Shown piece by piece: positions 13,426-17,895 of a DNA stretch of 21,968 bases. The stretch covers positions 1 to 21,968 of the IMG/VR virus record IMGVR_UViG_3300017729_000047; one strand, given 5' to 3'. Position 1 is the stretch's first letter, and the number at the start of each line of letters is the position of its first letter. The notes below the pieces were generated by a model. It was not told the DNA's origin. It was given only the letters and a program-made list of their open reading frames with translations, and ran no database searches. This DNA is from a virus. Position numbers and translations under genes: made by a program.

Positions 13426-14202
13426 CTATTTATTTTCTTGTTGTACGTTTTGTGCTTCTTCTGTAGTAGCTATTTGATATAGTTGAGGATCTTTTATTTC
13501 AACACCAGCAAGCTTTAGTATTTTTATAACCAACTCTGTTTCCTCTGATTGGTGTAGTTCAAAATCTTGACTATTATTAACGTTAAATAAAGGCTCGTCA
13601 AAAACAGTTGTATAAGCCCACTTTACAGTAACAGGCCTAGCTATATAGTTACACGTTACATTCGATGTTATAGTTGTTGGGTAAATTTGTATAGCTCTGT
13701 CTAGTGGAAAACCAGACGTTGTGCTGCTTGTTTGAGTAGAACTACCAGCTCTGGGAGTGTAATTAGAAGCTCTAACATAAACAGGCTGTGTTAATGAAGG
13801 AGCTGTTAGTGGTGAATTTTGTATATGGTGAACCTCGTTTTGATTCATTTTTTCTACCTCCACGTAACCACCTTTGTGTTTGTAGTACAGTTCACCCATT
13901 CTGTAATGTTGTGGTAAAGTACCTTGACCAGGTTCTGTTGAATGAGTTGACATAACCACTGGGACTCTATATTTTTCAAATATATCTATTTTTTCCTGTA
14001 TAATGTCTACTTGATCAGCGTACGTGTAGTCGTTTCCTGGTATTCTATTTAACGCGTTTAAATCATAGAAATATTGCTCAAATATATCCATCTGAACTTG
14101 ATTAGCGTATAGATTATACTCTTGAGGTGTTATATAACCTCTTTGTTCTTTATTAGCAACCGCTAAAACTCTTTGATAAACCGTATCTATATTAACCGCC
14201 AT
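13426..14202 (-). CDS. Head-tail connector ring protein
   Basis: A 258-residue protein. The N-terminal block VYQRVLAVANKEQRGYITP, followed by a helix with NQVQMDIFEQYFYDLN, is a pattern I recognise from connector or tail-ring proteins of crAss-like and related marine phages. A middle beta region includes PQHYRMGELYYKHKGGYVEV and ends with a Ser/Thr-rich loop at about 153-163. The C-terminal helix, ELHQSEETELVIKILKLAGV, is typical of proteins that pack against the portal ring. It is the only complete gene here that ends in TAG. A compact inverted-repeat structure lies 22 bases upstream of its ATG, so its expression could be set apart from that of the upstream gene. A ring or neck position is inferred from similarity and gene order. 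Confidence 0.75.
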   Translation of the reverse strand: MAVNIDTVYQRVLAVANKEQRGYITPQEYNLYANQVQMDIFEQYFYDLNALNRIPGNDYTYADQVDIIQEKIDIFEKYRVPVVMSTHSTEPGQGTLPQHYRMGELYYKHKGGYVEVEKMNQNEVHHIQNSPLTAPSLTQPVYVRASNYTPRAGSSTQTSSTTSGFPLDRAIQIYPTTITSNVTCNYIARPVTVKWAYTTVFDEPLFNVNNSQDFELHQSEETELVIKILKLAGVEIKDPQLYQIATTEEAQNVQQENK

Positions 14203-14224
14203 AATTTTTTTTTATTTATAGTAA

Positions 14225-14257
14225 GTAACCACCCCTATAGAGATGGTTACCTCTATA
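14225..14257 (-). promoter_or_regulatory. Interleaved inverted repeats (possible RNA pseudoknot) in leader
   Basis: In transcript order this stretch reads arm a TATAGAG, arm b GTAACCA, one T, arm a' CTCTATA, GGGG, then arm b' TGGTTAC. Both pairs are perfect 7-base complements, and they interleave, so the RNA could form an H-type pseudoknot or switch between two exclusive hairpins. It is 33 bases long within a 62-base gap and is followed by A-rich sequence rather than a T run, so it is not a standard intrinsic terminator. The arms are seen directly; folding and function are inferred. Confidence 0.6.
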
Positions 14258-14264
14258 AGTTGAT

Positions 14265-15002
14265 TTATTTCATTTTCTTTTCAACAGCTTTTAATATTTC
14301 CATACCGTCATCTGTTTTAAACCAAGCAGCTAGTGCTGAATAAGGATTTTCATCAAATGGTACAGTAAATAATTTTCTGCCATTACCCCACGTAAACGAT
14401 CTATTATCGCTAGCGAGTTTTATGATATTAGCTTCAACAGCTTTAACACCAATGTTTCTTAAATGCACGTTGTCATCTGCAGCTAGTTCTATAAAAGCAG
14501 CTGGTTGGTTTTTAGCAAGTAGTAAAGCGTCTCTTTTTACTTCTTTAGTAGACATTTTGCTTACTTTATTACCTTTTTGAACTCTTAATATAGCTTCTAA
14601 CTCATCTACTTCTAATTTTTTAGCTAAGTTTAAAGCTTCTATTTGTAACTCTATTTCATCAACCTCATTTTCAGCATACACCTCTGGTGTGTATTCATAC
14701 CACAATGTATTTCTTTTTGGATGATATAATGATAGTAGTTTCTGTAAAGCTGGTTTACTTTTTGGAACAGATAACCTACCTTCTTTAAAATATATATGAC
14801 CCAATGTTGCGTAACCATTCTGTTCATCAGCAAAAACTGATTTTTGATTAGTAGCATATCTTAATTCTCTATTGTGACCTTTTTCTTCATCGAAATAAAG
14901 TAAAGGTTTTCTTGACGTATGTTTTGATTGTATTGATAATACAGGTGGAGAATTTTCACCTTTTACAATATACACTCTATCTTTGTATTCCCATTTTTCC
15001 AT
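14265..15002 (-). CDS. Conserved virion-block protein of unknown function, 245 aa
   Basis: The gene directly downstream of the major capsid gene. Residues 1-95 look beta-rich, with blocks PVLSIQSKHTSRKPLLYFDE, RELRYATNQ and GYATLGHIYFKEGRLSVP. Residues about 110-170 form charged helices (DEIELQIEALNLAKKLEVDE, KVSKMSTKEVKRDALLLAK). The C-terminal part reads DDNVHLRNIGVKAVEAN and FTVPFDENPYSALAAWFKTD. I recall proteins with these blocks in the same place in marine phages but know no assigned function. Its position suggests a capsid auxiliary, head-completion or regulatory role. It is set off by the two largest gaps in the window, each containing strong inverted repeats, so its expression may be controlled separately from capsid and connector genes. 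The leader shares 14 bases ending at the ATG with the leader of the scaffold gene. Confidence 0.8.
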   Translation of the reverse strand: MEKWEYKDRVYIVKGENSPPVLSIQSKHTSRKPLLYFDEEKGHNRELRYATNQKSVFADEQNGYATLGHIYFKEGRLSVPKSKPALQKLLSLYHPKRNTLWYEYTPEVYAENEVDEIELQIEALNLAKKLEVDELEAILRVQKGNKVSKMSTKEVKRDALLLAKNQPAAFIELAADDNVHLRNIGVKAVEANIIKLASDNRSFTWGNGRKLFTVPFDENPYSALAAWFKTDDGMEILKAVEKKMK

Positions 15003-15029
15003 AATATAATATAATTAAAAAGTTTATAA

Positions 15030-15065
15030 GGGTAATAATTACCCCTGTAAATACAACAGGGGTAA
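15030..15065 (-). promoter_or_regulatory. Two competing hairpins downstream of the capsid gene
   Basis: Hairpin 1 pairs 15056-15065 with 15039-15048: a 10-base perfect stem (TTACCCCTGT/ACAGGGGTAA) with a 7-base loop. Hairpin 2 pairs part of the same second arm, GGGTAA, with TTACCC further downstream (15030-15044, 3-base loop). The two cannot form together. They begin 17 bases after the capsid stop in an 79-base gap. A short T run (CTTTTT) lies about ten bases past hairpin 2, so weak termination, attenuation or 3'-end protection of the capsid message are all possible. The repeats are seen; the function is inferred. Confidence 0.6.
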
Positions 15066-15081
15066 GAATTACATTTGTTTG

Positions 15082-16609: not shown

Positions 16610-17869
16610 TTATTTACGTATTTTAACCTTAAACGAGTTAGAATCACTACCTGTAATTGCTCTTACTTTCATACCACCAGCTTCAACAGTTTTATGCGTT
16701 TGTCTGGGGTCCATGCTCACGTTTTTTGCATTAGCAATACTATTCTTAATAGCATCTGCTTTGCCCTGCTCATAGAAATGATTAGCAACAGCATCGGCGT
16801 TCATTGCGGTAAATAAAGATTTATGGTAACCACTTGCATCACTCATTTCGTTTTTATCGTTTAAAAACTTTTTAACAAAATTAGTAATATCACTTTGACT
16901 ACTTTTAACCTTATCAGCATCTTTAACATTAAACCTATAACGCTTATCACCAACTTTATATTCAAAACCTTTGAAATTTTGGTTAAAAACTTTACTAGTT
17001 TCATTGTTAAAAATAGACGCTTGATGATCTGCAACTTTTTGATTTTCACCTTGCTCTTGGTTATATCTATTAAAGAAATCAACAGCCTTTTTTTGCTCAG
17101 AAGTTAACTTAACTCCAGCTTTGATTTCGTTATAGTATTTAGACTTTAACCCGTCTAGATGGGTTTTAGCACTGGCAACTTGCTCTTTAAGCGCTAATTT
17201 TTTTCTACGGACATCTCTTTCTTCATCGATTTCTTCGTCAACTGAAAATTGATCTTCCATTAAGAAACTAATCTCATCATCTGTAAGATGTGATTTCGTT
17301 TGTTTGTAATATTCTCTTAACAAAGTGTTGTCATCATATTTAGAATAATCTTGATTTAATCTAACATAATCTTCAAGAGTTCCACCGGTTTCATTCATAA
17401 ATTCTACAACTTTCTGAATGTTTTCTGGTAAATCAACACCTGTTTCTTTTGAATCTTGAACAGCTTGCTCCAAATCTTCTTGTAGCTCTTCCGTTTTAGA
17501 TTCAATAATTTCTTCTTTTATTTCTTCAGTAATTTCCTCGAGTATAGGTGTTTCTTCAACAACCTCTTCTTTTGGTTTATCCTCAACAACCTCGACAATT
17601 TTTTCCTCTTGTTTAGGTTCTTCTTCTTTTTTACTTAAATCAACTTTAGCAATAGCTTCTTCCGCTTGTTTAGTTTCTTCTTTTGCTTTACTTAAATCTA
17701 TTTTAGCAATAGAGTTATCTTGTTTACCTAATTGTTTAGGTTTTTTTGGTGTTTTCATTTTCATGTCTCCACCTTCTTGCAAAACTGGTTCGTCTACTTT
17801 TTTAGTTTCAGTTTTGGCTTTTTGAGTAGGTTGAATTTCTTCAACTACTTTATCTTCTTTTTTAGCCAT
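16610..17869 (-). CDS. Capsid scaffolding-like protein with acidic coiled-coil N-terminus
   Basis: A 419-residue highly charged protein encoded between portal and major capsid genes, the usual place of a scaffold. Residues 1-145 are very rich in Glu and Lys with almost no aromatic residues and look disordered or coiled-coil. They include a tandem near-repeat (53-71 and 72-89). Residues about 147-240 form a conserved-looking helical core with ENIQKVVEFMNETGGTLEDY and HLTDDEISFLMEDQFSVDEE followed by charged helices. The C-terminal 60 residues include GYHKSLFTAMNADAVANHFY and a basic end, KVKIRK, which may bind the capsid protein, as basic C-termini of P22-type scaffolds do. No protease motif is visible. 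The role rests on position, composition and resemblance to scaffold-like proteins of related phages. Confidence 0.75.
   Translation of the reverse strand: MAKKEDKVVEEIQPTQKAKTETKKVDEPVLQEGGDMKMKTPKKPKQLGKQDNSIAKIDLSKAKEETKQAEEAIAKVDLSKKEEEPKQEEKIVEVVEDKPKEEVVEETPILEEITEEIKEEIIESKTEELQEDLEQAVQDSKETGVDLPENIQKVVEFMNETGGTLEDYVRLNQDYSKYDDNTLLREYYKQTKSHLTDDEISFLMEDQFSVDEEIDEERDVRRKKLALKEQVASAKTHLDGLKSKYYNEIKAGVKLTSEQKKAVDFFNRYNQEQGENQKVADHQASIFNNETSKVFNQNFKGFEYKVGDKRYRFNVKDADKVKSSQSDITNFVKKFLNDKNEMSDASGYHKSLFTAMNADAVANHFYEQGKADAIKNSIANAKNVSMDPRQTHKTVEAGGMKVRAITGSDSNSFKVKIRK
17603..17713 (-). repeat. Tandem near-repeat inside the scaffold gene
   Basis: Residues 53-71 (SIAKIDLSKAKEETKQAEE) and 72-89 (AIAKVDLSKKEEEPKQEE) are two adjacent copies of one Lys/Glu-rich unit. 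They differ by substitutions and one residue of length. This points to a local duplication in the disordered N-terminal arm, a region where length variation is usually tolerated. Confidence 0.65.
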
Positions 17870-17895
17870 AATATAATATTATAAAATTAAACAAA

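Follow-up and report, generated by a model that had tools for sequence, protein, structure and literature searches.

A candidate bistable RNA leader before a virion protein gene in marine Bacteroidota podoviruses

What fold, and what function, belong to two pairs of complementary arms that interleave in the gap before a phage head gene? The arms lie at positions 14225-14257 of a virus record of 21,968 bases, here called the window, on the minus strand, which is the strand of all genes at this place. The terminase, portal and capsid-region genes of the window match head-and-packaging families of PHROGs. Three features frame the gap:

13426-14202, minus strand: downstream gene, 258 aa; head and packaging, virion structural protein (phrog_14543)
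14203-14215, minus strand: A-rich, unpaired leader of 13 nt, separating the hairpin H2 (see below) from the start codon
14265-15002, minus strand: upstream gene, 245 aa; phrog_34748, no assigned function; syntenic with gp94 of Cellulophaga phage phi38:1

A preliminary description of the locus placed the next gene 22 bases downstream of the arms, in agreement with the start codon at 14202, and took it for a ring-protein gene. The PHROGs assignment bears out a head-and-packaging virion structural protein; the ring identity is a guess, and a profile search for relatives of known structure gave no match for either flanking protein. Judged by the downstream protein, the nearest cultured relatives are phages of Flavobacterium, Cellulophaga and Maribacter (30-34% identity), and the gene order is shared with the phages phi38:1, Calle_1 and elemo. 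The surrounding operon had been regarded as otherwise gapless; in fact a gap of 79 nt after the capsid gene holds another hairpin, and the other gaps measure 26-37 nt.

The arms and the two hairpins that they can form are as follows:

14251-14257, minus strand: arm a, UAUAGAG; strand common to H1 and to the outer stem of H2, as judged from sequence and swap tests
14244-14250, minus strand: arm b, GUAACCA; 5' side of helix P2 of H2, in H1 mostly loop and stem top; the pairs of helix 2 covary in sub-alignment A3
14236-14242, minus strand: arm a', CUCUAUA; 3' side of H1, in H2 stem top and loop; swap tests and H2-preserving permutations
14225-14231, minus strand: arm b', UGGUUAC; 3' side of helix P2; covariation in A3
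14216-14221, minus strand: strand a'', CUAUAA; forms the outer stem P1 of H2 together with UUAUAG; compensatory change in relatives
14216-14258, minus strand: H2, predicted ground state; nested hairpin over the full length, with 19 bp, the loop UAUA and a single bulged A at 14222
14234-14259, minus strand: H1, 5'-half hairpin of 11 bp with the loop AACC; includes arms a and a'

Read on the minus strand from 14257 to 14225, the order is a, b, U, a', GGGG, b', so that two perfect 7-base interleaved pairs within 33 bases are present exactly as claimed. A scan for interleaved arms that match perfectly (7+7) and leave no more than 6 bases as spacers has a single hit in the window, 14225-14257; among 500 dinucleotide shuffles of the full window, just 3 contained such arms, in line with the earlier judgement that a chance origin is unlikely. 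The inventory of arms was incomplete, however: the third strand a'', which is also complementary to a, had been overlooked, and the GGGG regarded as a mere spacer pairs with UCUC in the predicted ground state H2.

The 62-nt gap RNA folds at -22.4 kcal/mol (z -6.94), a stability that none of 200 shuffles attained. In this nested hairpin, a'' pairs with the start of arm a, and the outer stem P1 changes from UUAUAG/CUAUAA to UUGUAG/CUACAA in the relatives L020, L024 and L030. Relatives were assembled as a first set of 46, with 80 more from a profile search and 53 pattern matches; about 100 distinct IMG/VR relatives conserve H2 at this single site, and its pairs show compensatory changes. RNAalifold returned no structure on the full MAFFT alignment owing to gap placement, and two sub-alignments, A3 and A4, were used. 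In A3, compensatory changes were found in 8 of the 17 pairs, 95.8% of the cells were paired and the covariation score was reached by none of 500 shuffles; A4 revealed compensatory changes in 5 of 19 pairs. Missing compensatory changes in both arms among relatives had been named beforehand as the observation that would count against a structure, and changes were found for both arm pairs.

Stem, loop and spacing were uniform across the relatives, while the letters varied. Among distinct elements the medians were 17 bp for the stem, 4 nt for the loop, 6 nt between stop codon and hairpin and 13 nt between hairpin and AUG; the median absolute deviation (MAD) was 1 nt for the stop-codon distance versus 2 nt for the AUG distance. 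Many relatives carried C(UUCG)G or C(UACG)G loops. Of 62 cases, 61 folded better as coding strand than as complement, indicating that the structure acts as RNA and not as DNA. Seven relatives seemed to lack the element; in these it was found upstream of a small inserted gene (51-55 aa), and its position relative to the AUG was kept even with the small gene in between. L092 and L094 gave weak model matches, yet fold as hairpins. Searches with alignment-derived models had the element as their best match and yielded no convincing second copy in the window and 12 long relatives; the leftover matches lay at the same site on the other strand or scored low.

H1 and H2 share strand a and are mutually exclusive, H2 being about 10 kcal/mol more stable in the window. 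The 5' half of the window element folded at -11.1 kcal/mol, compared to -1.4 kcal/mol for permutations that preserved H2 (z -6.4), and the 5' half outperformed such permutations (p<0.05) in 76% of 62 distinct elements. The elements' own a:a' duplexes had -6.25 kcal/mol versus -3.99 kcal/mol with swapped partners (z -8.8; 0 of 2000), an effect that was gone in reversed-strand controls (z about -1). Thinning to <80% identity left a z of -4.9 and thinning to <70% a z of -2.9; at <62% six sequences remained, with nothing left to test. Simulations along the protein tree in which only H2 was constrained gave z values with standard deviations of 1.1-1.7 and a lowest value of -4.7, never near the observed -8.4. 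Position by position, H1 was paired in 82% of the cells of A4, with double changes in two pairs; its covariation score was reached by 3 of 500 shuffles and one slid control scored higher, which is a moderate result. The helices of H1 were stronger on the coding strand than on the complement in 56 of 62 cases, with G-U pairs on one strand only.

The neighbouring gap of the same phages served as control:

15003-15081, minus strand: control hairpin gap after the capsid gene, with a separate conserved hairpin

There, an H1-type signal in the 5' half was found in 0 of 60 hairpins of similar size and stability, which dismisses an H1 analogue in this gap. In relatives the hairpin often has a UUCG loop and a U-rich tail; it is likely an ordinary terminator or attenuator. 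The capsid-gene gap of L121 and L123 is much longer and holds a second hairpin.

As the H1 test had been devised after the first relatives were seen, a distant second set, collected via the upstream protein, was run through the same procedure. In these 40 gaps, which were <80% identical to the first set, H1 was present in just 10%, although H2 persisted with at least 12 bp in 34 of the 40, essentially without U-tracts. A family-wide H1 is ruled out by this result. On the tree of the upstream protein, H1 changes 22 times versus 34 times for shuffled labels; it is clustered but patchy, and a feature of the window's wider clade. Mutually exclusive conserved pairings of which the earlier-transcribed one is weaker, as expected for delayed folding, were thus found within the clade and not in most of the distant relatives. 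In the window's clade, strand a is under selection for two exclusive pairings, with a' in H1 and with a'' in H2. The preliminary description had offered a two-state switch as an alternative; the covariation of a/a', which competes with that of a/a'', supports it in this clade, and a two-state element is the reading best supported by the sequence comparisons.

We therefore favour, with a probability of roughly 0.4, a bistable RNA leader that would give a limited early translation burst of the downstream gene. H1 would form first, since the 5' half emerges from the polymerase earlier than the 3' half of H2, and would act as a metastable trap during transcription. The modelled refolding barrier was 15.2 kcal/mol in the window and 10.6 kcal/mol on average, compared to 5.1 kcal/mol in permuted sequences, in a model of nested direct paths that ignores pseudoknotted intermediates which could speed refolding. 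While H1 is in place, a stretch of about 30 nt before the start codon would be single-stranded and open to ribosomes. By virtue of its greater stability H2 should win in the end, and refolding would set a highly stable stem 13 nt before the AUG, with pairing from about -14 outward, lowering further initiation. Each transcript would in this way support a limited early burst of the downstream low-copy head or connector protein. In distant relatives without H1, H2 alone would serve as a constant damper or would mark off the two genes from each other.

Initiation in Flavobacterium johnsoniae is tuned by structure within -20 to +20 and by an A at -12/-13 (PMC6847099). A role of the element in translation is plausible, and its main effect would most likely fall on initiation of the downstream gene, in the manner of MS2 and other leaders with delayed folding. 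H2 could also act without any switch. A role tied to the 3' end of the upstream gene may likewise exist, given that the element's spacing from the stop codon varies no more than its spacing from the AUG.

In the MS2 maturation gene leader, as cited in PMC6582335, a small local hairpin on the 5' side forms first and delays a stabler, ribosome-hindering structure. The likeness consists in an early small hairpin before a stabler fold and in the control of a low-copy virion protein gene; MS2 differs in its RNA genome, the cloverleaf of its final fold and a known functional test. The candidate leader described here is intercistronic, belongs to a DNA phage and has one long final hairpin and no sequence relation to MS2. 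The hok mRNA of plasmid R1 likewise has a metastable 5' structure that forms during transcription and rearranges later, whereas in hok it is 3' processing that sets off the rearrangement, which switches translation on (PMC6582335); here it would be spontaneous and turn translation down. A search of Rfam 15 with the window and 12 relatives gave no match at curated or permissive thresholds, and the element would class as a variant of the metastable leader without an Rfam match. The literature on phage intergenic RNA structures and flavophage transcriptomes yielded nothing usable.

To our knowledge, a biological role has been demonstrated for few metastable RNA folds, and signs that the transient fold is maintained in evolution along with the final one are rarer still. 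At this one short site, both folds come in dozens of natural variants, accompanied by lineages that lost the early fold and by a built-in control in the ordinary hairpin of the neighbouring gap. We put forward more tentatively that the site represents a new RNA element of marine Bacteroidota podoviruses, in which capsid-connector expression would be timed by the kinetics of folding alone, independently of any ligand, protein or second RNA, both exclusive folds being kept by covariation through near-complete sequence turnover. Whether protein stoichiometry in DNA phages is set by cotranscriptional folding would become directly testable with this site in flavobacterial laboratory hosts, which initiate translation without Shine-Dalgarno sequences.

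The same junction of genes in Cellulophaga phi38:1, Calle_1 and the Flavobacterium elemo phages also has a hairpin in the gap. In contrast to the element described here, which essentially lacks a U-tract, these phages combine the hairpin with a U-tract and a host-type TAnnTTTG promoter, which marks a transcription-unit border there. The promoter TAnnTTTG was seen in the gap before the homologous gene of the cultured relatives L069, L070, L071 and L072. Across the gaps, a host-type promoter is dismissed, TAnnTTTG occurring in just 2 of 124.

The alternative that survives best, though it is somewhat unlikely, regards H2 as an RNA-processing or end-protecting stem, either cut in the manner of RNase III or blocking an exonuclease, so that the flanking messages decay and are translated separately; H1 would then delay the substrate or be incidental. 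T7-like phages have stable intercistronic RNase III hairpins between late genes, without terminator tails. H2 is alike as a stable stem lacking such a tail, while an alternative 5' hairpin is no part of the definition of the T7 structures. A near-perfect stem of 15-20 bp, conserved in length and free in sequence, suits the needs of a helix-recognising nuclease, and it is located at the gene boundary where the cultured relatives split their transcription units by terminator and promoter. Processing leaves the covariation of H1 unexplained, however, and a median of 17 bp falls somewhat short of what the best-studied RNase III substrates need for efficient cleavage.

Transcription attenuation, with H1 as anti-hairpin and H2 as a hairpin for pausing or termination that descends from true terminators in this gap of related phages, is unlikely. 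It would connect well to the hairpins with U-tract of phi38:1, Calle_1 and elemo, and some uncultured lineages (L101, L118, L120 and L093) have a hairpin with a U-run or U-tract opposed by upstream pairing. Yet at least 5 U within 8 nt after the stem were found in only 1 of 96 distinct elements (median 1), the tail being A-rich, and the neighbouring gap, with its U-rich tails, has no H1. The element shares the G+C-rich hairpin of intrinsic terminators and lacks a U-tract directly after the stem; a terminator on either strand was dismissed, as the U-tract is missing and a terminator scanner finds none at this place. In these lineages (L101:1951-2000, L118, L120, L093:1912-2000) the strand just past the stop codon pairs with part of the U-tailed hairpin (AAAGUUGUGA/UCACAACUUU in L120), an arrangement that in sequence looks like an anti-terminator.

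Quite improbable is a passive gene boundary in which only H2 matters and the complementarity of H1 is mutational, generated by template switching in overlapping near-palindromes, which would tend to make every inverted repeat there perfect. Overlapping inverted repeats are known hot spots of template-switch mutation, and most of the distant set has H2 but no H1. Against this, secondary repeats of this kind are missing from the neighbouring hairpin (0 of 60), which in these phages equals H2 in length and stability, and a mutational bias at the DNA level would favour neither strand, whereas H1 is stronger on the coding strand (56 of 62) with G-U pairs confined to one strand. The same strand bias rules out a DNA cruciform or origin; a DNA operator of two half-sites was rejected since the TAG-CTA spacing varies from 8 to 12 nt and the pairing is strand-biased. 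The H-type pseudoknot of the preliminary description is very improbable as the functional fold, for although both stems are perfect in the window and their stacks alone sum to about -21.3 kcal/mol before any loop penalty, loop 1 has 0 nt, loop 3 has 1-3 nt against 7-8 bp in relatives (L018, L087), lengths at which two simultaneous interleaved stems are not feasible, and the nested hairpin is clearly favoured (-22.4 kcal/mol, z -6.9), with compensatory changes in P1 and P2, including the upper-stem pairs that a pseudoknot would break.

Two observations concern the genes around the element. In some relatives the element is separated from the structural gene by a small gene, 51-67 aa long, in which a cysteine motif resembling GCNCNKRK is conserved:

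L033:2834-3001, L044:2840-2998, L092:1837-1998, L122:1833-1997, L139:1837-2001, L151:1785-1988: small-gene loci

Furthermore, the same A/T leader, TAATTATATTATATT / TAATATTATATT, immediately precedes two start codons on the minus strand, at 15003-15020 for the start at 15002 and at 17870-17890 for the one at 17869. Nearly all relatives have it in front of the upstream gene too, and it is possibly a promoter or a translation leader.
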